Position numbers and translations under genes: made by a program. Positions 9,690 through 20,718 of a DNA stretch of 20,718 nucleotides are shown here, one piece after another. The notes beneath the pieces are model-generated. The model did no database searches. It was given only the letters and a program-made list of their open reading frames with translations, and was not told where the DNA came from. The stretch covers positions 1-20,718 of IMG/VR virus record IMGVR_UViG_3300045993_000505; one strand, written 5' to 3'. How positions within the stretch are numbered: position 1 is the first letter of the stretch; every line of letters begins with the position of its first letter. The DNA is from a virus.

Positions 9690-12600
9690 ATGACTGATAC
9701 GGTCAATTATGTTACCCAGGACCTGGGTCAGGTTGCAGCCCTTACCGCTCGGGTGGGGGTTCTTGATGACAACGTAACTGCCCTGATTACGGCAGTCACA
9801 GCCACCAAGGTGGGGCTGCAGACTTCCGTCGCCAATGCAGCCACCAATGCCACCCTTGCGGGTACCAAGGCAACGGCGGCAGATGCTTCCGCCACCGCTG
9901 CGGGTGTCTCAGCAGGACTCTCCGGGACCTATGCCGAGAACTCGCGCTTGCACATGGTGGATTCGGAAGCAAGTTCTGTTGTGGCAACAACAAAGGCCGC
10001 TGCGGCTGCGGCCTCTGCCTCCTCCCTGGCAGTAGCTTTAGCATCTTTCCGACAGTTTTATCTGGGCACGTTTGCCTCTGACCCCCTACACGATGGGAAT
10101 GGAGACGCACTTCAGGAAGGGGCTGAATACTTCAACTCTGTCTCGGACAAGCTTCGGACCTACACGGGGGGGGTCTGGGTTGACTACGACTCAACCGCCC
10201 AGGCTGCAACTAACAATGCCAACCTGAGTGCCGCTGCTGCTGCTACCTCAGAAGCTGCGGCTGCTGCAGCCCTCGTTTCGGTTAATGGCATGGCGGTGAC
10301 TGTTGCGGGGTACACGGCTACCTCTGCAGGGGATGCAGCTACCGCTACCGAGCAGGCTGCTATTGCTGTGGAGAACGGCACCATTGCCACGACCCAGGCG
10401 GTGAGTGCAGCCCTTCAGGCCTCAAACGCAGCTACTTCTGCAACCGACTCTGCCTCCAGTGCCACAACGGCAACAACGAAAGCCTCAGAGGCTGCGACTT
10501 CTGCTACTACAGCTTCGACCAAAGCGGCAGAGGCTGCGACTTCTGCAACCTCAGCCTCGACCAAAGCGGCAGAGGCTGCGACTTCTGCAACCTCAGCCTC
10601 GGCCTCTGCTGCTACAGCAACCACCCAGGCAGAAGCCCTGGTGACGGCGGGTACCATAGCAACGACCCAGGCAGCAATAGCTATGACTCAAGCCGCCTTG
10701 GCGACAACCCAGGCGGAAGACGCTGCGGCCTCTGCTGCGTCTGCAGCCGCCAACGCGGGGGACGTAAACGCAGGGGTAACTGAGGCTACAGCTCAAGGTA
10801 CCGCCGCTGCGGCCAATGCTGCGTTGGCGCTTGAGGCTAAGGCCTCGGCCCTTGCAAGTGCTGCAACAGCCACAACCAAAGCAGCGGACTTAACCACTGC
10901 GGTATCCACAGCAACAACCAAAGCTTCCGAAGCATCTTCTTCTGCAACTACAGCCGGGACTGGCGCGACCACGGCCACAACCAAAGCGGCAGAAGCTGTA
11001 ACCTCTGCGACCAGTGCTGCGACCAGTGCCGCCACAGCGACGACTCAGGCCGCTTTGGCTGTGACGAGCGCCGGTACGGCCAGCACGGATGCCACAACGG
11101 CCTTCAGCAGCAAGACAACGGCAGTCTCCAGTGCCGCCGCTGCCGCTGCTTCCGCCTCTGCGGCTGCGGCTGATGCTTCAACGGCAAGTACGAAAGCAAC
11201 TTCGGCCACAGGCTCTGCCACGACGGCGACAACCCAGGCCGGAATCGCTACCACCAAAGCTGCGGAGGCGGCTGCAAGTGCAACGGCTGTTGCTACCAAT
11301 ACTGCCACGGTGGCTTCGAACCTTTCGACAGTCAATTCCCAAACCACCACGACCACTACAAAAGCTGCTGAGGCCTCAACCTCTGCAACCAATGCTGCAG
11401 CCAGTGCCACCACAGCCTCTACGGGCGCAACGACGGCGACAACTCAGGCGGGAATCGCTACAACTCAAGCAGGCCTTGCTGCAGCCTCAGCCGGAACTGC
11501 TGCAACCAGTGCCACAACGGCCACCACAGGGGCCTCTACTGTTGCCAGTGCTGTGACCGCTGCCTCGGGCAGTGCAACAGCAGCAGCGGGTAGTGCAACC
11601 TCAGCCAGCACAAGCGCCACATCGGCGGGAACAAGTGCCACCTCTGCCACCGCTGATGCTGCAACAGCCACCACCAAAGCAGCAACAGCAACGACTCAGG
11701 CCGGGATCGCAACCACCAAAGCCTCTGAAGCCAGTGCCAGTGCTGCAACAGCCTATGGAGCTTCCCTCCTGGCAGTATCCAAGGCTGATGAGGCCAGCAC
11801 CAGTGCCACCAGTGCTGCCACATCCCTTGCAGCTATCGGGAGTTCTGAAGCAAACGCTGCTACGTCGGCCACCAGTGCAGCAACATCGGCCACGTATGCT
11901 GACACCTCAGCAGCAACAGCCACGACCAAGGCTACTTTGGCGACTGAGAAAGCCACAGTAGCCTCCTCTAGTGCCACGACCGCCACCGACGCAGCGGCCA
12001 GTGCAGGCTCACAGGCAACCTATGCGGCTGTGTCTGCTGCCTCGGCCTTGACCTCGGCCTCTAGCGCCACCGCCTCACAGGCTGTTGCCACCACGCAGAA
12101 GGAGCTGGCACAGACCGCAGCAACTACAGCTACCGCCCAGGCCGTGCTTGCAGCCAACAGCGCCAGCGCAGCGGCTGGTTCAGCTACTGGTGCTGCCGCA
12201 AGCGATGCTTCGGCCCAGGACTGGGCAGAGAAGACCCCCAATATCCCAGTCGAGACCGGGATGTATTCTGCCAAGCATTGGGCGATGCAGGCCCAGGCCA
12301 GCAGCAGCGGCTCCGTGACCTACCGAGGGATGCTTGATGCCAGCATTGGCAGCTACCCCTCTCTGGCCCACCTTGGGGACTATTACGTCATTGGGACAGC
12401 CGGAACGATTGGCGGGACGTACTATACGGTAGGTGAGTCAATCATCTATAACGGAACGACCTGGGACAGCACAGGTGGGGCTACTATTCTGTCAGTCAAC
12501 GGGGAGGTAGGAACAGTTGTCTTGACCAAGACCCACATTGGTTTGAGTAATGTGGACAACACCAGTGACGCCAACAAGCCTGTAAGTACGGCCCAAGCCA

Positions 12601-15600
12601 CCGCCATTGCGTTGAAGGCCACCGCAAGTAGTCTTGCCACGGTTGCCACCACAGGGGCCTATGGTGACCTCTCTGGCACGCCTACAGCCTATTCCTTACC
12701 CTTGGCTGGGTCAACTACCCTCGGGGGCATCAAGAGCAGCTCCAGCGTCCTGGTGGATGGCTCGACGGGGGTGGCTACCGTCACCCCCACCTCCATCGGG
12801 GCACGGCCCAGCTCCTACGTCCCGGCTTGGTCAGAAGTTACTTCCAAACCGACAACCCTGGCAGGGTACAACATCAGTGATGCCTACCCTTTGACAGGAA
12901 ACCCGGCAGGCTACTCAACCACCGTGGGTACCGTAACGGGTGTCACAGCTACCGGGCCAGTGCTTTCCAGCGGGGGGACAGCTCCCGTCATCAGCCTACC
13001 TGCTGCAACAAGCAGCGTCAGCGGGTACCTGTCCAGCACGGACTGGGCTACCTTCAATGCTAAGGCTCCCGTCAACAACCCAACCTTTACAGGCACAGTT
13101 GGTGGTGTCACGGCAGCAATGGTCGGAGCCCCTTCCGGCAGCGGCTCCAGCAGCGGGACAAACACTGGGGACAATGCTACCAATACCCAGTATTCAGGCT
13201 TGGTCACGAATGCCACCCATACGGGAGACGTAACAGGTTCAGGTGCTTTGACGATTGCCACCAGTGCTGTGACCCTCGCCAAGATGGCGGATATGGCTAC
13301 GGGCTCACTGATCTATAGAAAGACAGCGGCCACGGGCGTACCTGAAGTCAATACCCTTGCGACCCTGAAGACGGACCTTGGGTTGACGGGGACAAACAGT
13401 GGGGACAACTCAGCCAACACCCTGTACTCCTCTTTGGTTACGAATGCGACCCATACTGGAGATGTAACGGGTGCCACAGCATTGACGATTGCCACCAGTG
13501 CTGTGACTCTCGCCAAGATGGCAGACATGGCTACGGCTTCGCTGATTTACAGAAAGACAGCGGCCACTGGAGCGCCTGAGGTTAATACCCTTGCGACCCT
13601 GAAGACGGACCTTGGGTTGACAGGCACGAACAGTGGGGACAACTCTGCCAATACGCTCTACAGTGGGTTGGTCACGAACGCGACCCACACGGGAGACGTA
13701 ACAGGTTCAGGTGCTTTGACGATTGCTAACAGTGCCGTGACCCTCGCCAAGATGGCAGACATGGCTACGGGTTCTCTGATTTATAGAAAGACAGCGGCCA
13801 CTGGAGCGCCTGAAGTCAATACCCTTGCGACCCTGAAGACGGACCTTGGTCTGACAGGTACAAATTCAGGGGACAACTCTGCCAATACGCTCTACAGTGG
13901 GTTGGTCACGAATGCCACCCATACGGGAGATGTGACGGGTTCTGGAGCTTTGACAATTGCTAATAAGGTAACGATGACCGCCACGGCTCCCGTGTTGGTA
14001 TCTGGAAGCCCAACAGTGATTGCTGGCGGCGCAGTTGCGATCAGTATGGCAGCAGCGACCACAAGTGTTCCAGGGTACCTGACAGCCGCCGATTGGACAA
14101 CCTTTAACGGTAAGCAAGCTGCGCTAGGTTTCACCCCAATGAATAGCACGGTTCCGGTAGTACAGTACACCGGAACCGCAGGGGATATGAACGCCTTTGG
14201 TGTCCACACCATCAATGAGGTAACCTACGCAAATGATAGCACTAGCAACCTCCCCGTAAGCCCCAGTGGTTCCGCCCAGTGGTGGAACACCCTGACGATG
14301 GGGCCAACAACAAGAACCACACAAATTGCAGCGCAGGCGTATGGGACGGGTTCTGGCAACGCACCACAAAGCGACGTATGGATTAGGTCTAAGCATGACG
14401 CCGGTTGGAGTACGTGGCTGAAGTTCATAACGTCAGGAAACATCGCCAGTCAGAGCGTCAACTACGCTACCACAGCGGGATCGGCCCCCGCAAACGGAGG
14501 GACTTCCGCTGCTTGCTCTGGCAATGCTGCATCTGCTACTTACGCTTCTGGGGTAACCCCAAATAGTTTCGCGGGGGCGGGTACGTTCAATCTATCTTGG
14601 TCAAGCAATGGTGGAGGTGACAAGGCCTCTTATTACACACCAGCTCTAACTTGGACGCCGACCACCTCAATGATTGGCGGGGCTAATATATCCGGCAACG
14701 CCGCTACTGCTACCACGGCGGCTGCTTGCTCAGGTGAAGCAGCAAGAGCCAAAGGGTTACAACGTAGCGATAGCCCCTCAGATGCCTATAACGTTCAGTC
14801 CTGGTGGGACGGTGCTTATTGGGAATTAAAAGGCTATGCAAGTACAACCTACCACGCGGGCTGCAAGGTAGCTTATGCAACAACCTCTGGCGCTTGCTCT
14901 GGTAACGCTGCCACAGCCACCACAGCTACCGCTCTGACAGGTCACTCCGCTGGATATGCCTACGCAGATGGTGGAAACTCAGCAACGGTTGGTGGTTATG
15001 GCCGGTGTACCGCACTTGCCGACTATACAACCTGGGACTCTGGCAAATGTGGTCCAGTGGGGTGGTACAACTTCGCTGGTGGCCCTACTACGTCGAACTT
15101 TCACATGGGGTGGAGAACAACGTTCAACGAAGCAATGACCTATGGTGCAGAAATTGCTGTCGTTAGCGGTGGTGGACGCGCATTCTTCAGGACATTCAAT
15201 GCCAATGTTGGTCAGGCGTGGAATGAGTTTTACCATAACGGAAACTTGACTCTATCGCAGACAGCGGGTACATCTTATCGCGCAGTGCAGGCAGACGTAA
15301 ACGGATACATCCACAACACCTACTTCAATTCGACAGACAACGCCATCGCATCTGGTGTGACTGCGATTATGGCAAAGCAGGGCAATGACTTCATGCGTTC
15401 TGCCTCGGCAGCAGCGGTAGCCACGTTCATTAGCGGGCAAGCAATGAACATCTCTGGAGCGTCTACATCGTGTTCAGGTAACGCTGCCTCTGCTTCACAA
15501 CTGGTAGGCGCAGCACCAAACGGGGTGTATCGCTACACGCCAAACGTCCACTTCAATTCGGGTGCAGGAGGTGGCATTTATATAAACTGGGATAACGGTG

Positions 15601-15983
15601 GAACAGGCACACACTTCCATGTTGGAAATGGCTTTAACAGTGAAGCTTTTTCCGTCTCCAGCACCGGTGTTACTTGGGCAGCCAGCACCATCAGCTCGGC
15701 CTCCGACGAACGCCTGAAAAAGAACTGGCGCGACCTTGGCATCGACTACATCTCCAAGCTGGCGAAGGTGAAGTATGGCGTCTATGACCGCACGGACATT
15801 GAACAGACCCAGGTCGGCGTCTCTGCCCAATCGCTCCAAGAAGTCATGCCGGAAGCGGTTACGGCCAGTGAAGACGGAATGCTCGCAGTGGCCTACGGCA
15901 ACGCAGCTCTCGCAGCCTGCGTTGCACTTGCAAAAGAAGTGACAGAACTCCGTGCGGAAATCAACAAACTGAAGGGGATTTGA
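9690..15983 (+). CDS. Side tail fibre with Ala-rich stalk and C-terminal S74 chaperone
   Basis: Very long fibre protein (2097 residues), analogous to lambda Stf. Order of parts: a short N-terminal coiled coil (LTARVGVLDDNVTALITAV); a recurring fibre module at about 118-170 (FYLGTFASDPLHDGNGDALQ); an Ala/Ser/Thr-rich stalk from about 175 to 840; the Stf-type motif DWAEKTPN...YSAKHWAMQAQ near 844; the SVNGEVGTVVLTKTHIGLSN segment; an array of 78-residue repeats; a pyocin-knob-like domain (about 1480-1585, SDVWIRSKHDAGWSTWLKF); and beta-rich fibre ending in WNEFYHNGNL. The C-terminus is an S74 intramolecular chaperone with SDERLK at 2005-2010 and a final coiled coil. AAAAAGGA at 9674-9681 is a good ribosome site. 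The S74 part should trimerise, then cut itself off at Ser2005/Asp2006. Assignment as trimeric fibre is strong; the receptor is unknown. Confidence 0.93.
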   Translation: MTDTVNYVTQDLGQVAALTARVGVLDDNVTALITAVTATKVGLQTSVANAATNATLAGTKATAADASATAAGVSAGLSGTYAENSRLHMVDSEASSVVATTKAAAAAASASSLAVALASFRQFYLGTFASDPLHDGNGDALQEGAEYFNSVSDKLRTYTGGVWVDYDSTAQAATNNANLSAAAAATSEAAAAAALVSVNGMAVTVAGYTATSAGDAATATEQAAIAVENGTIATTQAVSAALQASNAATSATDSASSATTATTKASEAATSATTASTKAAEAATSATSASTKAAEAATSATSASASAATATTQAEALVTAGTIATTQAAIAMTQAALATTQAEDAAASAASAAANAGDVNAGVTEATAQGTAAAANAALALEAKASALASAATATTKAADLTTAVSTATTKASEASSSATTAGTGATTATTKAAEAVTSATSAATSAATATTQAALAVTSAGTASTDATTAFSSKTTAVSSAAAAAASASAAAADASTASTKATSATGSATTATTQAGIATTKAAEAAASATAVATNTATVASNLSTVNSQTTTTTTKAAEASTSATNAAASATTASTGATTATTQAGIATTQAGLAAASAGTAATSATTATTGASTVASAVTAASGSATAAAGSATSASTSATSAGTSATSATADAATATTKAATATTQAGIATTKASEASASAATAYGASLLAVSKADEASTSATSAATSLAAIGSSEANAATSATSAATSATYADTSAATATTKATLATEKATVASSSATTATDAAASAGSQATYAAVSAASALTSASSATASQAVATTQKELAQTAATTATAQAVLAANSASAAAGSATGAAASDASAQDWAEKTPNIPVETGMYSAKHWAMQAQASSSGSVTYRGMLDASIGSYPSLAHLGDYYVIGTAGTIGGTYYTVGESIIYNGTTWDSTGGATILSVNGEVGTVVLTKTHIGLSNVDNTSDANKPVSTAQATAIALKATASSLATVATTGAYGDLSGTPTAYSLPLAGSTTLGGIKSSSSVLVDGSTGVATVTPTSIGARPSSYVPAWSEVTSKPTTLAGYNISDAYPLTGNPAGYSTTVGTVTGVTATGPVLSSGGTAPVISLPAATSSVSGYLSSTDWATFNAKAPVNNPTFTGTVGGVTAAMVGAPSGSGSSSGTNTGDNATNTQYSGLVTNATHTGDVTGSGALTIATSAVTLAKMADMATGSLIYRKTAATGVPEVNTLATLKTDLGLTGTNSGDNSANTLYSSLVTNATHTGDVTGATALTIATSAVTLAKMADMATASLIYRKTAATGAPEVNTLATLKTDLGLTGTNSGDNSANTLYSGLVTNATHTGDVTGSGALTIANSAVTLAKMADMATGSLIYRKTAATGAPEVNTLATLKTDLGLTGTNSGDNSANTLYSGLVTNATHTGDVTGSGALTIANKVTMTATAPVLVSGSPTVIAGGAVAISMAAATTSVPGYLTAADWTTFNGKQAALGFTPMNSTVPVVQYTGTAGDMNAFGVHTINEVTYANDSTSNLPVSPSGSAQWWNTLTMGPTTRTTQIAAQAYGTGSGNAPQSDVWIRSKHDAGWSTWLKFITSGNIASQSVNYATTAGSAPANGGTSAACSGNAASATYASGVTPNSFAGAGTFNLSWSSNGGGDKASYYTPALTWTPTTSMIGGANISGNAATATTAAACSGEAARAKGLQRSDSPSDAYNVQSWWDGAYWELKGYASTTYHAGCKVAYATTSGACSGNAATATTATALTGHSAGYAYADGGNSATVGGYGRCTALADYTTWDSGKCGPVGWYNFAGGPTTSNFHMGWRTTFNEAMTYGAEIAVVSGGGRAFFRTFNANVGQAWNEFYHNGNLTLSQTAGTSYRAVQADVNGYIHNTYFNSTDNAIASGVTAIMAKQGNDFMRSASAAAVATFISGQAMNISGASTSCSGNAASASQLVGAAPNGVYRYTPNVHFNSGAGGGIYINWDNGGTGTHFHVGNGFNSEAFSVSSTGVTWAASTISSASDERLKKNWRDLGIDYISKLAKVKYGVYDRTDIEQTQVGVSAQSLQEVMPEAVTASEDGMLAVAYGNAALAACVALAKEVTELRAEINKLKGI
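10200..12215 (+). repeat. Ala/Ser/Thr/Lys-rich stalk repeat region, 42-bp units in part
   Basis: The fibre coding sequence here is made of near-repeats of units such as STKAAEAATSATSA. The cleanest part is around 10470-10600, where a 42-bp unit recurs almost perfectly (second copy starting near 10557, 42 bases after 10515). 42 bp is 14 residues, or two heptads. The remainder is a degenerate relative, with TTQAGIATTKA and TTKASEA variants. Lys and Glu recur at regular intervals between small residues, as expected of an Ala-rich coiled coil. The composition also produces long open frames on the other strand that are not genes. Confidence 0.85.
13155..13970 (+). repeat. 234-bp tandem repeats in the fibre gene
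   Basis: The motif coding GTNxGDN recurs at 13155, 13389, 13623 and 13857, exactly 234 bp apart, giving three full units and about half of a fourth. Each 78-residue unit holds GTNSGDNSANTLYSGLV, TNATHTGDVTG, an AVTLAKMADMATGSLIYRK strand-helix and PEVNTLATLKTDLGL. Copies are very similar at DNA level, especially the third and fourth, so recombination between them could change shaft length in whole 78-residue steps. Confidence 0.93.
15702..15719 (+). other. Predicted S74 self-cleavage site and catalytic motif of the fibre
   Basis: These codons encode SDERLK, fibre residues 2005-2010. In characterised S74 chaperones (for example the K1F endosialidase tail spike) the chain is cut between Ser and Asp after trimerisation, using a Ser/Lys pair. 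Both residues are present here. A cut would release the last 92 residues, including the terminal coiled coil, and leave a fibre ending in STISSAS. The motif is seen; cleavage is inferred from the family. Confidence 0.8.
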
Positions 15984-15984
15984 A

Positions 15985-16782
15985 ATGACGACGATTTATA
16001 CCTTGCCGTTCGTGATGGGTGGCGGTGCCCTGAAGTACCAGGAATTCACCGGATCAGGCACCTTCACACCTAGCGCAGCACTGCTTGCTAATGGTGGACA
16101 GGTAATGGTGCTGTTGGTGGCGGGTGGTGGAGGGAGTGGTGGTACGTCCATGGGCTATGCCTCGGGTGGCGGTGGTGGTGGTGGTGTTTTACTGCAACCC
16201 TGTACGGTAAACGCCGCTACTACTGTAACTATCGGTGCTGGAGGGGTTGCTGCTGTAATGAGTGTTAGTAGTCCTACTACCGGTGGAGATTCACTCTTTT
16301 ATGCATCCTCTGGTACGCTGACAGCTAAGGGCGGTGGCTATGGGAGCAGTGGTAGTGGGGGCGCTGGAGGCTGTGGTGGTGGAGGTGGGAGCAACGGTTC
16401 AACAGGCTCTATTGCTGGCGGCGGTGGGGGTGGTGCTGGAGGCTATGGGCATCCTCCTACAGTGAGTCAGACAACGGCTATATCTTGGAGCGGTAGTGGT
16501 AGTGGTAGTCAAGGTGGCAGTGGTGCTCCTGGGTATAACGCCACTACCACTGGGCAGATATGTAGTGGCATGGGTGGCCCAGGACTATACGGATATGGTG
16601 GTGGTGGTGGTGGTGGTGGTGGCATTGGCGCAGGGGGTGGTTCAGGTGGTGGTGGCATTGGTGGTTCTCCGGGGTCTGATGGAGCCGCTAATACTGGCGG
16701 TGGTGCTGGTGGCTGCTATACCACAACAATTGCAGGGCGCAATGGCGGCTCAGGTTTCTGTCGTGTCTATTGGTCGGAGTAA
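15985..16782 (+). CDS. Glycine-rich phage adhesin-like protein, candidate fibre tip
   Basis: 265 residues, extremely Gly-rich. The N-terminal part (KYQEFTGSGTFTPSAALL, VMVLLVAGGGGSGG) is the glycine-rich domain seen at the ends of many phage fibres. It is followed by blocks of poly-Gly separated by short variable loops rich in Ser, Thr, Tyr, Pro and some Cys, and the protein ends GGSGFCRVYWSE. This layout resembles the adhesin gp38 of T2-like phages and phage S16, where a polyglycine-II sandwich holds hypervariable receptor-binding loops. It starts one base after the fibre stop with AAGGGGA at 15972-15978. Gly codons are mostly GGT and GGC, while GGG is common in J and the tape measure. The adhesin role is inference from composition and position; it could instead be a structural fibre protein. 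Confidence 0.62.
   Translation: MTTIYTLPFVMGGGALKYQEFTGSGTFTPSAALLANGGQVMVLLVAGGGGSGGTSMGYASGGGGGGGVLLQPCTVNAATTVTIGAGGVAAVMSVSSPTTGGDSLFYASSGTLTAKGGGYGSSGSGGAGGCGGGGGSNGSTGSIAGGGGGGAGGYGHPPTVSQTTAISWSGSGSGSQGGSGAPGYNATTTGQICSGMGGPGLYGYGGGGGGGGGIGAGGGSGGGGIGGSPGSDGAANTGGGAGGCYTTTIAGRNGGSGFCRVYWSE
16597..16623 (+). repeat. GGT trinucleotide tract in the glycine-rich gene
   Basis: Eight GGT codons in a row followed by GGC encode nine glycines. A shorter relative, GGT-GGC followed by five GGT, lies at 16165-16185 and codes six glycines within a seven-Gly run. Copy number could change by replication slippage without breaking the frame. Confidence 0.85.
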
Positions 16783-16785
16783 TTT

Positions 16786-17262
16786 ATGTATGCACTAATC
16801 AAAAATGAAGTGGTCGAGAATGTCATCATTGCTGACGCAGCTTTCGCAGAGCAAATCGCCGTCCACTACGACGATGTGATCAGCCTTGACTCACGCCCTG
16901 AAGTGGGCATCGGTTGGGGTTATGTGTCTGGTGCCTTCGTCGCCCCAATAGTCGTACTGCCTGTCCTTCCTGACCCTGAGCCTGATCCCGCCGAATGGTT
17001 GATCGACGTAGGCCCATTCTTTGACCGCTTCGGCAATCTCAAGATGGCAATCCTCACATCGACCGACGCCGGGGTGAGGGCTATTCTTGCTGACCTCCAG
17101 GTGCGCCATTGGATTGATTTGAAGCGTGCAGATGTGGCAACGGGACTGGCCTACGTTGGAAGTGTCGTTCCTTCGTTAACCTCTACAATCAGGACTACAA
17201 TTCTGACTACACCTGTTGCTGCACATGAGAACTTAGTTCTACGCAAACTGTACTTCAAATGA
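16786..17262 (+). CDS. Small fibre-associated protein, possible fibre assembly or attachment factor
   Basis: 158 residues. The N-terminus (MYALIKNEVVENVIIADAAF, VGIGWGYVSGAFVAP) has the pattern of short phage proteins found beside tail fibre genes, including fibre assembly proteins. The second half (PFFDRFGNLKMAILTSTDAG, RHWIDLKRADVATGL) resembles another small family that I associate with tail-fibre clusters. The end is basic (LVLRKLYFK). A GGAG at 16776-16779 overlaps the end of the upstream gene, and the start is three bases after its stop, so the two are probably translated together. The stop overlaps the next start (ATGA). No catalytic motif or membrane segment is visible. Role in assembly or attachment of the adhesin is inferred from position and pattern. 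Confidence 0.6.
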   Translation: MYALIKNEVVENVIIADAAFAEQIAVHYDDVISLDSRPEVGIGWGYVSGAFVAPIVVLPVLPDPEPDPAEWLIDVGPFFDRFGNLKMAILTSTDAGVRAILADLQVRHWIDLKRADVATGLAYVGSVVPSLTSTIRTTILTTPVAAHENLVLRKLYFK

Positions 17263-17759
17263 ACTACGCAACCATCCGGCCCACCCTCAAGTCAGGAGAC
17301 TTAATCGCTCAAAGCCACAGGGCTCCTTTCTGGAAATCCTGGTATGACTTCAAGATAGCAATGGTGCGCTGTTTTACCCAGAGTGAGTTCAGCCATGTGG
17401 CTATCTGTTGGGTGATTGCTGAGCGTGTCTTTATCCTGGAAGCTGTCTCCAAGGGGGTACGCATTTTTCCACTGAGCCGTGCTGGGGATTTCTACCATCT
17501 CCCCTTGCCAGTAAAGTGGACGGAGTTTTCCGAAGCCTATGCACTGTCCCATGTGGGGGACCGATACTCCCAGATCGAGGCCATCCTGGCCTACTTCGGG
17601 CCGGTAGATGAGATGAAGGATGTCTGGGAATGTGCTCAGTATGCCCTGTGCATACTAGAGCAAGCGGGGGTCCAACTGGGTAACGTTGCTACCCCCACCG
17701 CTGTGGTCCGAGCTGCACAACTCTCAGGCGCTCCCTGTATCCTGGTGACTAACCCATGA
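17259..17759 (+). CDS. Permuted papain-fold (YiiX/YebB-like) enzyme
   Basis: 166 residues with the layout of circularly permuted NlpC/P60-type enzymes, in which the histidine comes before the cysteine. Visible in order are SGDLIAQS, the SEFSHVAI motif giving the candidate catalytic His, FILEAVSKGVRIFPLS, a second basic strand block, and WECAQYALCILEQAG with the candidate Cys in a helix. Members of this superfamily include amidases and hydrolases; several phages carry them next to tail or lysis genes. No signal peptide is seen. The start forms an ATGA overlap with the gene before, and the stop overlaps the next (ATGA). It could act on peptidoglycan or on lipid or peptide amides; the substrate cannot be read from the sequence. 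Confidence 0.68.
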   Translation: MNYATIRPTLKSGDLIAQSHRAPFWKSWYDFKIAMVRCFTQSEFSHVAICWVIAERVFILEAVSKGVRIFPLSRAGDFYHLPLPVKWTEFSEAYALSHVGDRYSQIEAILAYFGPVDEMKDVWECAQYALCILEQAGVQLGNVATPTAVVRAAQLSGAPCILVTNP

Positions 17760-18175
17760 GCCAAGTATCTGTTGTCCTTGAGCTGGTGCCGGTAGGATTG
17801 GCTGTGGTATCCCTCGGCATTGCTATTCGGAAGTTACTTCGGGTCCGACGCAAAGCAGATAGAATAACCCTAGTGCTATCAATGATATGCAGTTTACTGT
17901 TAGTCATAGCTCAGCTATCTTGGTGGCAGACCTTTGCCAACCACCACCAGTTACAGGACACGGAATGGGTGAATATGATATGGACGTTGTTCAATACCTT
18001 GGTAATGATGACCTTCATCAGCATGGCGGGGTTCCGTTCCCCTGCCCCTTGCTCGCGCGTAGCGGGACAGTGCCCATTGGCGGACATGGATGAACAAGAC
18101 CGCATCAAACTCCGACCGGAGTGTGCGACTTGCCCAGCGAATAAGGGGAGGCCAAGTGCGTCAATACCTTTGTAA
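17756..18175 (+). CDS. Membrane protein, three TM segments and a Cys-rich C-terminus
   Basis: 139 residues, function not recognised. Hydrophobic segments lie at about 5-24, 37-57 and 74-93. A basic loop (RKLLRVRRKADR) between the first two predicts that this loop and the C-terminus face the cytoplasm. The tail (from residue 94) has four cysteines, Cys99, Cys106, Cys123 and Cys126, in a C-x6-C...C-x2-C arrangement that could bind a metal. The start overlaps the stop of the papain-fold gene (ATGA), so it is coupled to it. The gene lies among other small membrane proteins upstream of a holin-like gene. A role in lysis timing or in membrane exclusion of other phages is possible but not shown. Confidence 0.68.
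   Translation: MSQVSVVLELVPVGLAVVSLGIAIRKLLRVRRKADRITLVLSMICSLLLVIAQLSWWQTFANHHQLQDTEWVNMIWTLFNTLVMMTFISMAGFRSPAPCSRVAGQCPLADMDEQDRIKLRPECATCPANKGRPSASIPL
18143..18151 (+). promoter_or_regulatory. Strong ribosome binding site deciding a GTG start
   Basis: AAGGGGAGG lies four bases before a GTG at 18156. The in-frame ATG at 18090 has only a weak upstream purine run. This site supports the GTG start. Confidence 0.8.
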
Positions 18176-18584
18176 CCTACGGGACATGCTCCTGATCGGA
18201 CAAACTACCTCGGTACGCTTCTTCCTGGCTGTGTTCAGCCTATTTCTGGCCCTCGATATTTCCCTGGACATGAAGCCAGATGAGTCCATTGAGTTCATCT
18301 TCCACACCATAACCGGGTCGCTTGGGGGCCGGGAGCTGTGGATTGGGCTGTTACTCCTTCATGCTTTCATGTTGTTGAAGGGGCTTACTGGACGGTATGG
18401 ACCCTTTCACCTCATCTTTGAATCCGTACTTGGCTGGGCGCTTTGGGCACTGCTGGCCGTGTCGCAGATCATAGTAGATGGACACCCAGGCATTGCTTTT
18501 GCTGGTTTCTTAATGGCAACGTGGCTCCTTATCAGGTATCCCACACATTGGAGGGCCAGTCGTGGACGAAGCAACAATCATTAG
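18156..18584 (+). CDS. Membrane protein, four TM segments (GTG start)
   Basis: 142 residues from the GTG start; function not recognised. Hydrophobic segments lie at about 19-36, 60-77, 84-107 and 111-127. A basic C-terminal tail (RYPTHWRASRGRSNN) predicts a cytoplasmic C-terminus and therefore a cytoplasmic N-terminus as well. I chose GTG 18156 because AAGGGGAGG stands directly upstream; the open frame reaches an ATG at 18090, but starting there would add a charged, membrane-poor extension and a large overlap. The chosen start overlaps the previous gene by 20 bases. It ends inside the start region of the next gene. Possibly a holin or holin partner, but membrane topology alone cannot decide. 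Confidence 0.7.
   Translation: MRQYLCNLRDMLLIGQTTSVRFFLAVFSLFLALDISLDMKPDESIEFIFHTITGSLGGRELWIGLLLLHAFMLLKGLTGRYGPFHLIFESVLGWALWALLAVSQIIVDGHPGIAFAGFLMATWLLIRYPTHWRASRGRSNNH
18550..18555 (+). promoter_or_regulatory. Ribosome binding site for a GTG-start gene
   Basis: GGAGGG, six bases before the GTG at 18562, inside the end of the previous gene. It supports a GTG start where no ATG is available nearby. Confidence 0.75.
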
Positions 18585-18894
18585 GGTACTAGGTGGGGGC
18601 GGTGGGCTAACCATCGCTGTGGTGATCCTACGGGCACTCTACGTCCAATGGAGTAAACAGAACCCGGGGTTAGAACAAGCTGGCGCTGCTGTTGACATCT
18701 ACTCCATGCTGCGTACTGAGCTGAGGGAGATGCAGAAGGAACGCAAGTTGATGCGTCGGCAGATCGTTCTGCTTGAAGGTCTGTGTACCAAGCATGGCCT
18801 TGACATTCATGAGCTGTACCGTAGCGCCGGGATGGGGGATGAGGATGATCCTGATCCCACCCTGAACCCTGGGGCTCTCCCTGAGAAGGATTAA
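18562..18894 (+). CDS. Single-TM plus coiled-coil protein, spanin-like layout
   Basis: 110 residues, starting with GTG. A Gly-rich hydrophobic segment (LGGGGGLTIAVVILRALYV) near residues 9-28 is a likely TM anchor. It is followed by a charged helix (LRTELREMQKERKLMRRQIV) about 50-70 that fits a coiled coil, a Cys at about 75, then an acidic tail (GMGDEDDPDPT). The layout of N-terminal anchor plus coiled coil is that of an inner-membrane spanin or a lysis regulator, but no lipoprotein partner (lipobox) is visible nearby, and the family is not certain. It overlaps the previous gene by 23 bases and has a GGAGGG site. It precedes the holin-like gene by two bases. Confidence 0.66.
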   Translation: MDEATIIRVLGGGGGLTIAVVILRALYVQWSKQNPGLEQAGAAVDIYSMLRTELREMQKERKLMRRQIVLLEGLCTKHGLDIHELYRSAGMGDEDDPDPTLNPGALPEKD

Positions 18895-18896
18895 GA

Positions 18897-19112
18897 ATGA
18901 CTCTGGATGACGCTGGTGGACGCAAATTCGTTATTGCCCTACTCAGTGGGGCCAGCACATCCCTTCTGCAATGGTGGGGCAAGCTTGATGCTGCAGGAAT
19001 GGCCTACGGCATCTCGATAGCTGCCACTGTTGGAGCCTACATAACAGGGGACATCTTTGAGAAGAAGCATGTTCTGGAAGCAGAAACAAAACGAGAAAAG
19101 GACTGTCCATGA
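18897..19112 (+). CDS. Small holin-like membrane protein
   Basis: 71 residues with two hydrophobic segments, about 11-26 (FVIALLSGASTSLLQW) and 34-52 (GMAYGISIAATVGAYITG), joined by a short loop (WGKLDAA) and followed by a charged C-terminal tail (EKKHVLEAETKREKDC). The pattern GGRKFxxALL ... QWxGKLD ... GAYITGD is one I know from small phage proteins annotated as holins. A holin opens the inner membrane to trigger lysis. GAAGGA at 18884-18889 is a good ribosome site, and the stop overlaps the next start (ATGA). Holin is the best guess from size, topology and position; it could be another small inner-membrane protein. Confidence 0.66.
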   Translation: MTLDDAGGRKFVIALLSGASTSLLQWWGKLDAAGMAYGISIAATVGAYITGDIFEKKHVLEAETKREKDCP

Positions 19113-19549
19113 ACCTATATCTCTATCGTGAACCCTCCGTTGGCAGGGCCACCCTCGGAAGATTGTTCCACGGTGAAGAATTTGTGTGCGACGTTCTGGA
19201 AGACGTTGTGCGTGAGGTCCCAGGTGAGCCTGTAGAGAGCTGGAAAATCCATGGCGAGACAGCTATCCCTGCTGGTACCTACAACGTGACGATGGAGACC
19301 AGCGCCCGGTTCGGACCCCGGACCATCACCCTCAATAGTGTCCCAGGCTTCGAAGGTATCCGGGTCCACGCCGGGAACTACGCCAAGGACACTGAAGGGT
19401 GCCTACTGGTCGGGGAGCGCGATAGCTGCTGCACAATCACTCATTCAAAAATCACCTTGGCTACCGTCAAGGACATGATCAACATCGCGTTACTGGAGGA
19501 CAAGGAGCTGGTGACGCTACAGATATTTCCCGCAATGGAGGCGGTATGA
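19109..19549 (+). CDS. DUF5675-like phage protein, candidate cell-wall enzyme
   Basis: 146 residues of the DUF5675 type, common in phages and prophages and not well characterised to my knowledge. The family pattern is visible: a CDVLEDVVREV strand after the N-terminus, KIHGETAIPAGTYNVTM, ARFGPRTITLNSVPGFEGIR, then VHAGNYAKDTEGCLLVGER with His87 and Cys98. The His...DTEGC block recalls the His...(S/T)HGC active site of L,D-transpeptidases (YkuD fold), which suggests a thiol enzyme, but the resemblance is only in pattern. Cys107 and Cys108 follow. AAAAGGA at 19096-19102 gives a good ribosome site. It is coupled to the holin-like gene before (ATGA) and the 30-residue gene after (ATGA). Family is fairly sure, function is not. 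Confidence 0.75.
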   Translation: MNLYLYREPSVGRATLGRLFHGEEFVCDVLEDVVREVPGEPVESWKIHGETAIPAGTYNVTMETSARFGPRTITLNSVPGFEGIRVHAGNYAKDTEGCLLVGERDSCCTITHSKITLATVKDMINIALLEDKELVTLQIFPAMEAV

Positions 19550-19638
19550 AAAAATTGGACGAGGTAGTTGTGAGGGCTATCAGTTCGGTAATTCTCGCTG
19601 GACTATTGGTGATTATTTATCTGGTGTTCATACGATGA
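19546..19638 (+). CDS. 30-residue single-TM peptide
   Basis: A very short open frame in the middle of the overlap chain. It begins MKKLDEVVVRAISS with a basic start, then has one hydrophobic segment (SVILAGLLVIIYLVF, about 14-28) and a final IR. GGAGG at 19537-19541 stands four bases upstream. Its ATG overlaps the previous stop, and its stop overlaps the next start (ATGA at both ends). Those coupled junctions, the ribosome site and the membrane pattern all support a real gene despite its length. It could be an accessory pinholin, holin antagonist or small regulatory peptide; nothing in the sequence tells these apart. Confidence 0.6.
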   Translation: MKKLDEVVVRAISSVILAGLLVIIYLVFIR

Positions 19639-19847
19639 CCAAAGCCTACAACGAAGCCCTTGCAGAAGCCTCAAGATTGGCGCTGGAGATTCGCACGGCC
19701 AACGGGGTTAAGATACATTCTGATTCTATGAAGCGTAGGCGTAGGCAGGACCTTATTGAGGACCAGCAGGCGATTCGTGAAGCTTTCGAGGCCGACGCGC
19801 AGTGGGATGATTTCCACCTCATCGACAACCAAGTGGATATAAACTAA
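19635..19847 (+). CDS. Small charged helical protein, unknown
   Basis: 70 residues, no recognised family. The N-terminal half is a predicted amphipathic helix (YNEALAEASRLALEIRT), a run of four arginines follows at 34-37, then an acidic, Gln-rich helix (LIEDQQAIREAFEADAQW) and an acidic end. No membrane segment, cysteine or catalytic motif is visible. It overlaps the 30-residue gene by four bases at its 5' end and the next start by one base (TAATG), so it belongs to the same translated chain. The charge split, basic middle and acidic end, is consistent with a protein-binding or nucleic-acid-binding adaptor, but I cannot choose. Confidence 0.58.
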   Translation: MTKAYNEALAEASRLALEIRTANGVKIHSDSMKRRRRQDLIEDQQAIREAFEADAQWDDFHLIDNQVDIN

Positions 19848-20692
19848 TGGCTCCTTTATTTTTCCTCGCCTTTCTTGCTTTCATCGGCTTCCTTCTGTAC
19901 CAGAGAAGGCGCACCTACCCCGACATAACCGTAGCCCCCGCAGAGAAACGTAGGGATGACCTTCTGTATGGTTACTATGGTTGTGCAGACAATCAGGTTG
20001 CTGAAACAAAGGACCACGTTAACTTACTCCACGAAAGTCAATTTGATGGACCCGAGAAGTGTATTCAGAACATCCTGGATGCCCAGATGTTTACTGTTTT
20101 GGATGTCTCTACTCAAGTCTTCTTCGAGGGTCATGTCAAGCCAACGGCAGAGGGTGAGCTACTTGCCTTTCTAAGCGTGCTGTCTCTGCGTGGGGCTCTG
20201 AAATATATAGAGGTAATCTACCCAATTGATGAGCCCAACAATACTACTAATGCTTTGGACCTGAGCAAGGCTGTCAGCATAATCCAGAGGGTGGCAAAGT
20301 CCTTTCCCGACTTGGATGGGGTGCTGTTGGGCGTGTGCTATGCAGAAGATAAGCCCTTCATCTGCCAAGAGTTGTTTGATCTTGTAGGGTTTGATGCCTA
20401 CGGAAAGAAGTCGAGTGTCCTGACTGGGAAATATCAGACATTCAGGAACACACTTCTTCCCTTCCAGAAGACGATCCTTTTTCCTGGAGCGGCCTACGGG
20501 CAGGACCCTAAGCCGTTCGTCAATTGGGCCGAGACGGACCCGCGTGTCAAGATATTGATGCCCTTCCTCTGGCTCGATGAGCGCATTGACCCAAAGACTG
20601 GCAAGGGCTCGGTCGGTGCTCCGGGCGTTCGTAGTGGGCCGCTCAAGCAGCAGTATATTGACGCTGGCAAGTATGTGACAGGTAAAAGTTAG
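19847..20692 (+). CDS. Membrane-anchored protein, possible TIM-barrel glycoside hydrolase
   Basis: 281 residues. An N-terminal hydrophobic segment (PLFFLAFLAFIGFLLYQ, 3-19) is followed by four basic residues in the next stretch (RRR, then KRR at 34-36). The rest looks like a (beta/alpha)8 enzyme: YGYYGCADNQ (41-50), a strand ending DVSTQVFFEG (86-95), YIEVIYPIDEPNN (120-132) with Glu129 where a clan-A hydrolase acid would sit, GVLLGVCYA, VGFDAYG (180-186) and ILMPFLWLDE (236-245). The positive residues after the anchor would favour a cytoplasmic C-terminus, which is awkward for a wall enzyme unless it is released or exported in another way. It starts by TAATG overlap. I regard glycoside hydrolase as likely but unproven, and an endolysin role as a guess. 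Confidence 0.55.
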   Translation: MAPLFFLAFLAFIGFLLYQRRRTYPDITVAPAEKRRDDLLYGYYGCADNQVAETKDHVNLLHESQFDGPEKCIQNILDAQMFTVLDVSTQVFFEGHVKPTAEGELLAFLSVLSLRGALKYIEVIYPIDEPNNTTNALDLSKAVSIIQRVAKSFPDLDGVLLGVCYAEDKPFICQELFDLVGFDAYGKKSSVLTGKYQTFRNTLLPFQKTILFPGAAYGQDPKPFVNWAETDPRVKILMPFLWLDERIDPKTGKGSVGAPGVRSGPLKQQYIDAGKYVTGKS

Positions 20693-20718
20693 ATGACAAC
20701 GCTTATTGCGGTTTACCT
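20693..20718 (+). CDS. Start of a further gene (3' partial)
   Basis: An ATG follows directly after the previous stop (TAGATG) and reads MTTLIAVY to the window edge. Only eight codons are visible, with a weak AGG upstream. The tight junction matches the rest of the chain, so a gene probably continues to the right. No product can be assigned. Confidence 0.45.

Follow-up and report, generated by a model that had tools for sequence, protein, structure and literature searches.

The last complete gene of a linear IMG/VR record of 20,718 bases, the whole of which was analysed and is called the window here, encodes a protein with an N-terminal anchor and the motifs of a (beta/alpha)8 hydrolase, and this raises the question of what a phage does with such a protein. 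A sequence-only reading of the same DNA had proposed it as an unusual endolysin. The gene, P0001 (19847-20692, plus strand, 281 aa), begins with an ATG that overlaps the stop codon of the preceding ORF (TAATG) and stays open for 281 codons. Scans of IMG/VR viral contigs yielded six relatives (L002, L003, L004, L005, the record carrying L010 and L020, and L028), so that the family counts seven distinct records, window included and all in IMG/VR; L006, L007, L011-L019, L024-L027 and L029 are extra copies of counted records and were left out, and later scans of IMG/VR mostly returned contigs already known. The relatives are 31-54% identical to P0001, and 31 columns of the alignment are invariant across the seven members. 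L003 is truncated by its own contig end, and L004, whose end differs shortly after GAPGI, was trimmed to residue 263 from alignment A3 onward. These two form the closest pair, with 203 of 220 residues identical, and over the 220 codons dN is 0.048 and dS 0.50 by NG86 (0.051 and 0.515 by YN00), a dN/dS of about 0.10; the pair is under purifying selection. Six homologues with conserved residues, together with this ratio, show that the ORF is more than a chance open frame, and 19847-20692 is confirmed as a real gene.

Sequence searches did not place this family among known ones. P0001 had no match in Pfam, NCBIfam or the PDB sequences, its best match in PHROGs was PHROG 1521 (E 0.37), and searches of phage records at E 0.01 and of plasmid records at E 0.1 gave nothing. 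For the family, neither the 50,697 phage records (six of the seven members run) nor the 72,556 plasmid records (two of the seven run) gave a convincing match, and NCBIfam scans of all seven members and Pfam scans of six (all but L020) found no glycoside hydrolase family. The members' weak, scattered matches in Pfam, PHROGs, NCBIfam, PADLOC and PDB sequences were attributed to chance, the best in PADLOC having E 0.022 and 0.027, each for one member. The same was concluded for a phage match, H1 (E 0.2), within an ORF that resembles an Asp/Glu racemase by eye, and for phage matches H11-H13 (E 4-10), the first of which is antisense to an annotated gene. Two scans of genome contigs gave no cellular relatives, a weak demonstration of their absence because each scan used two short peptide patterns. 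GH123 (PF13320) was not found in the window, which says little since it gave a below-cut-off signal in one of 14 control genomes.

An AlphaFold model of P0001, built from the five members of alignment A3 (the two most distant members were found later), reached pLDDT 68 and pTM 0.65, with pLDDT below 50 at residues 129-132, 215-218 and most of 241-281; a single-sequence fold with pLDDT 40 was discarded. The AlphaFold model takes the form of a (beta/alpha)8 barrel, with glycoside hydrolases as its nearest matches, and its barrel domain spans approximately residues 37-272 (19955-20662, plus strand), with low confidence over 241-271. The first ten rows of VIA-align were all GH26 enzymes and beta-1,4-galactanases, the latter of which we take to be GH53, at Z 12.7-13.1: the GH26 lichenase 2bv9 had Z 13.1 (rmsd 3.3 over 211 residues) and a beta-1,4-galactanase 12.9, and GH17 followed at 12.4. 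Barrels of the PEP-mutase/lyase superfamily came within 1 of the best, at Z 12.5 (PEP mutase 1s2w) and 12.1. The best Foldseek matches in the PDB were pyruvate carboxylase, ranked first, and human O-GlcNAcase, both with a modest E of 3.7e-4, and six of the eight PDB matches with E <= 0.001 were glycosidases, 5tke being taken as O-GlcNAcase; the other two were pyruvate carboxylase and dehydroquinate dehydratase. Query TM-scores were at most 0.48 among the 50 rows listed, and the neighbours included O-GlcNAcase, GH26, GH18-like and GH113 enzymes. In a viral fold library the best match was a protein annotated as glycoside hydrolase family 5 (E 2.0e-5, TM 0.54). The barrel fold is thus supported by the model, whereas membership of the glycoside hydrolase class is likely and short of proof.

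In clan GH-A, Asn-Glu ends strand 4 and the nucleophile Glu ends strand 7. P0001 shares with enzymes of this clan, such as the GH26 lichenase CtLic26 and the beta-1,4-galactanases, the (beta/alpha)8 barrel and a Glu in the loop after strand 4, but in its family Asp replaces Asn before that Glu, the strand-7 Glu is absent in all seven members, and there is no sequence match. The Glu in question, Glu129, sits in the motif IYPIDEP, and the pair Asp128-Glu129 (20228-20233, plus strand) is placed by the model in the loop after strand 4 and is invariant in all seven members, with Glu129 in a low-confidence stretch. Asp183, Tyr185, Asp220 and Trp242 are likewise invariant in the alignment. At the GH-A nucleophile site, the last part of strand 7 and the loop behind it (20483-20509, plus strand) carry an invariant P213-G214 and Q219-D220-P221, and no Glu occurs at residues 205-219 in any of the seven, as judged by sequence alignment; in L020 an insertion that follows strand 7 contains an Asp. 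Because the strand-7 Glu is missing throughout, the classical GH-A mechanism is unlikely, and Glu129 is a good candidate acid without its classical partner. Among 15 polar or aromatic invariants, a set chosen by hand, seven lie in windows at the strand C-termini that make up 48 of 240 positions (p 0.014, 20,000 random draws, strand 1 being taken by hand to residue 44 where the model called 40-41), and control windows at the strand N-termini hold three (p 0.61). All 31 invariants are weakly concentrated in the C-terminal windows (10, p 0.062). The model therefore supports a barrel with conserved polar residues near the C-termini of its strands, and the hydrolase-like barrel first suspected from the letters is supported at the level of the predicted fold and by the invariant Asp-Glu after strand 4.

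Other barrel enzymes resemble P0001 in part. PslG of Pseudomonas aeruginosa (5bx9), presumably a membrane-anchored polysaccharide hydrolase, matches it as a barrel with Z 11.5 and rmsd 3.7 over 219 residues, but is a larger, host enzyme with no sequence relation found. The GH20 and GH84 N-acetylhexosaminidases, whose catalysis is substrate-assisted, share an acidic pair that opens loop 4, model confidence at Glu129 being low; in an extract on the GH20 enzyme VhGlcNAcase, the catalytic Asp437-Glu438 start the loop after strand 4 (PMC4752478). Human O-GlcNAcase, as noted, is among the top Foldseek matches, but P0001 is much smaller, is anchored, has 9-14% identity in the Foldseek rows and no family match, and the comparison concerns the acidic pair alone. 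The GH114, GH135, GH166 and GH191 galactosaminidases are described as small barrels, too, which attack surface polysaccharides by means of an Asp/Glu pair (PMC12054363). Two phage proteins of spherulation-specific family 4 among the 50 viral fold rows listed are a further likeness to this group, whose catalytic Asp and Glu are not adjacent in sequence, in contrast to Asp128-Glu129 of P0001, and with which P0001 has no sequence match. Enzymes of GH114, GH135 and GH166 are absent among the 50 VIA rows listed, which excludes nothing.

On which side of the membrane would this barrel act? The anchor of P0001, residues 1-17 (19847-19897, plus strand), reads MAPLFFLAFLAFIGFLL and is followed by YQRRR; its 17-residue hydropathy (KD17) is 2.52, within the range of 2.19-3.43 found in the six members with a transmembrane (TM) type of anchor. 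In these six the stretch before the anchor carries a net charge of 0 or -1 and the 15 residues behind it one of +1 to +4, and the position of the Arg20-22 cluster of P0001 (19904-19912, plus strand) is basic in every one of them. Since the basic residues come after the anchor, the positive-inside rule points to an N-out, C-in orientation, so the barrel of TM-type members probably faces the cytoplasm; for P0001 we judge a cytoplasmic barrel to be fairly likely. The seventh member, L028, has instead a lipoprotein leader with a lipobox Cys, MSAMKQLLSILSLSTAVLLTAC, read directly from its sequence, which sets it on the opposite side of the membrane from the one the charge rule gives for the TM members. 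SAR endolysins also hold a phage hydrolase-like domain behind a single N-terminal anchor, but they are described as having basic N-termini and weakly hydrophobic anchors (extract of PMC9239132), whereas the P0001 anchor is strongly hydrophobic and its basic residues follow. The sequence-only reading had called the anchor unlike that of SAR proteins and its topology puzzling; both remarks extend beyond P0001, since in all six TM-type members KD17 is 2.2-3.4 and the basic residues come behind the anchor, and the puzzle is a real and conserved one.

The surroundings of the relatives are diverse. In L003 and L004 (contigs G003 and G004) the barrel gene follows an HSP20 gene (by Pfam for L003) among genes that look by eye like T4-like replication genes, and in L005 its region also contains helicase, ssDNA-binding and exonuclease genes. 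The contig of L020 (G001) is T4-like by eye and carries, about 13 kb from the barrel, a GH19-type endolysin that matches phrog_181 'endolysin' (E 7.7e-79) and stays below the Pfam cut-off for GH19 (22.2 of 25.5 bits in one scan, 16.1 in another). In L002 (G002) a DUF4376 protein precedes the barrel, and a GH24 lysozyme (122 bits), which has a holin-like gene upstream (phrog_785, E 4.9e-5), lies at a distance of about 5 kb. A search of all seven records for GH24 (PF00959) and GH19 (PF00182) thus placed a separate endolysin on two of the six related contigs, all records being fragments. The interval between hsp20 and the DNA polymerase gene holds the barrel in G003 and G004 (L003:9292-10768, L004:9173-11045) and the GH19-type endolysin in G001 (L020:2532-4057), and appears as a variable site. 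In L028 the barrel lipoprotein adjoins a BD-FAE esterase lipoprotein, and the locus also includes virion-protein and exonuclease genes. The two lipoproteins have very similar leaders and make up a two-gene lipoprotein cassette (L028:9842-11930). These unrelated neighbourhoods argue that the barrel gene is not tied to lysis cassettes, the occupants of the hsp20-polymerase interval being the one observation that speaks against this, and the 53-54% identity between P0001 and members on contigs of unrelated gene content points to a mobile accessory gene.

The window itself is a siphophage-type tail module by PHROGs, with the end of a tape measure gene, minor tail proteins, tail assembly, J and a tail fibre, and the N-terminal part of its J is 40-43% identical to the counterparts in Xylophilus phage Lumi and Achromobacter phage JWF. 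The tail fibre (9690-15983, 2097 aa) shows by eye a long Ala/Ser/Thr-rich region and segments repeated in near-identical form. Small genes follow the tail genes, and at least one transmembrane segment is predicted in each of 16786-17262, 17756-18175, 18090-18584 and 18562-18894. That no ordinary lysozyme or amidase is visible here, as had been remarked, holds: PF00959 and PF00182 had no match in the window, and a Pfam scan of the ten ORFs at 15985-20692 found no lysozyme or cell-wall amidase; its closest approach was ORF 17259-17759, which scored 17.7 bits against the papain-like 'amidase' family C92 and so fell short of the cut-off of 27. C92/YiiX-like permuted papain-fold proteins share a record with the barrel in two of the seven cases, this below-cut-off one and L020:18816-19295. 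The contig ends 26 bases past the stop of P0001, in the start of a next ORF (MTTLIAVY..., 20693-20718, plus strand) that runs off it, so that the view of genes stops at 20718. In Lumi and JWF, the nearest tail relatives, GH19 genes come after the tail genes (28.3 and 27.3 bits, cut-off 25.5), with an Rz-like gene beside that of Lumi (E 1.7e-4), and by analogy a GH19 endolysin beyond 20718 is possible. The window genes after the fibre had no match in these two phages, except a weak one of 18090-18584 to JWF gp033 (22% over 73 aa, E 0.004).

A candidate lysis enzyme lies in the late region 0.3 kb upstream of P0001, where the gene at 19109-19549 (plus strand) encodes a DUF5675 protein (Pfam E 2.8e-24). 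Pfam classes DUF5675 as a family of unknown function, and an extract of PMC10671443 merely lists a DUF5675 ORF. Relatives occur in 109 of the 50,697 phage records, and in the 40 of these listed the annotation is transpeptidase or L,D-carboxypeptidase/transpeptidase for 22 and peptidoglycan hydrolase for one, and two overlap a gene called lysis regulatory protein or holin. We inspected three neighbourhoods, picked for closeness or annotation: in cr85_1 two lysis-regulatory genes stand directly upstream of the DUF5675 gene, in a Thiohalocapsa phage an annotated Rz-like spanin stands two genes upstream, and in Curvibacter phage PCA1, whose DUF5675 protein is 55% identical to that of the window, Rz-like matches stand two genes upstream (E 3.9e-4) and, marginally, downstream (E 0.021). 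DUF5675 relatives in crAss-like phages and in PCA1 adjoin lysis-like genes. One His and a Gly-Cys pair are conserved in all four aligned DUF5675 proteins. A 71-aa ORF (18897-19112, plus strand) overlaps the DUF5675 gene by 4 nt and is 46% identical over 54 aa to its positional counterpart in PCA1, which likewise overlaps the DUF5675 gene; it is holin-like by eye only, since neither the window ORF nor that of PCA1 has a segment hydrophobic enough to pass the TM threshold, and PHROGs gave no match. The DUF5675 protein is predicted to be a better lysis candidate in the window than P0001, and is a candidate non-canonical endolysin.

With moderate confidence, we favour the reading that P0001 is a membrane-tethered, glycoside-hydrolase-like accessory enzyme spread among unrelated phages, and not a lysis enzyme. 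We hypothesise that it would cleave a host envelope glycan, either a surface polysaccharide or a lipid-linked precursor, at the inner membrane, with Glu129 as the putative general acid and Asp128 or Asp183 as its partner. Catalysis could be substrate-assisted on an N-acetylated sugar, or could involve a different partner from the strand-7 Glu that clan GH-A uses; TM members would face the cytoplasm and the lipoprotein member would be extracytoplasmic. The benefit to the phage, which may be receptor loss, less trapping of progeny or exclusion of competitors, is a guess. Counted against this reading are that no sequence family match backs a glycoside hydrolase, that PEP-mutase barrels are near in Z, that pLDDT is low at Glu129 and beyond residue 241, that charge rule and lipoprotein relative indicate opposite membrane sides, and that the barrel of G003 and G004 occupies the interval of the GH19-type endolysin of G001. 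A more specific version, in which these are small inner-membrane-tethered glycosidases whose cytoplasmic Asp-Glu pair, by substrate-assisted catalysis, cuts lipid-linked precursors (undecaprenyl-linked N-acetyl sugars) while the phage is infecting, and whose exported lipoprotein branch works on the same glycan once it has been flipped, is a speculation to which we give little chance. If the favoured reading is true, phages possess a tethered envelope enzyme by which host glycans are edited from the membrane, different in kind from both lysis enzymes and tail depolymerases, and, given that no convincing match was found in the phage or plasmid records searched, the repertoire of phage accessory genes would gain a new kind.

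The glycosidase assignment has to be weighed against two other uses of the same barrel. One is an enzyme of other chemistry, lyase, mutase or aldolase-like, at the cytoplasmic membrane face, which would agree with the Z-scores of the PEP-mutase/lyase-superfamily barrels, the high Foldseek rank of pyruvate carboxylase and dehydroquinate dehydratase, the predicted cytoplasmic side and the lack of the GH-A nucleophile. We nevertheless think it unlikely, since glycosidases fill the first ten VIA rows and six of the eight best Foldseek PDB matches, and a lipoprotein member beside an esterase lipoprotein misfits a cytoplasmic metabolite enzyme. The other is a barrel without catalytic activity whose role would be to bind a glycan or a membrane partner, perhaps as an exclusion or lysis-timing factor. 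For this there is a precedent in the releasin gp25 of phage Mu, a short-tailed anchored phage protein with predicted N-out/C-in orientation and a regulatory role (extract of PMC9239132), and the classical GH-A nucleophile is indeed missing in seven of seven members; at the same time, Asp128, Glu129, Asp183, Tyr185 and Asp220 stay invariant down to 31% identity to P0001, which is unusual for a dead site and makes this distinctly unlikely in our view. There remains the endolysin first proposed, whose anchor would export the barrel to the periplasm to cut the glycan strands of peptidoglycan. Its late-gene position near small membrane-protein genes, the window's want of a GH24 or GH19 match, the exported leader of L028, the barrel of G003 and G004 standing where G001 has its endolysin, and a GH20-like Asp-Glu pair that could act on peptidoglycan sugars are all in keeping with it, as are the formally unknown function of DUF5675 and the small ORF upstream of it that lacks a clear TM segment. 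Set against these are the separate GH24 and GH19-type endolysins on two of the six related contigs, the gene's place among replication genes on other contigs, a strong, non-SAR anchor whose basic residues stand on the wrong side in six of six, and the annotation as L,D-transpeptidase or peptidoglycan hydrolase of 23 among the 40 DUF5675 relatives listed. With neighbourhoods so unrelated and DUF5675 predicted as the better candidate, the endolysin proposal does not stand up well: P0001 is probably not an endolysin, and we consider that role quite improbable. An anchored barrel in a late region, accordingly, need not be an endolysin.

Two of the related contigs also show interrupted genes. At L003:5971-8416 a clamp-loader-like gene is divided into two ORFs, which look by eye like a split intein in two halves and enclose a further, separate ORF; the first ORF ends with an intein-like N part, and the second opens with a C part ending VIAHNC. 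At L004:11045-16404 a DNA-polymerase-like gene is, by eye, spread over several ORFs, between which lie minus-strand endonuclease-like ORFs.
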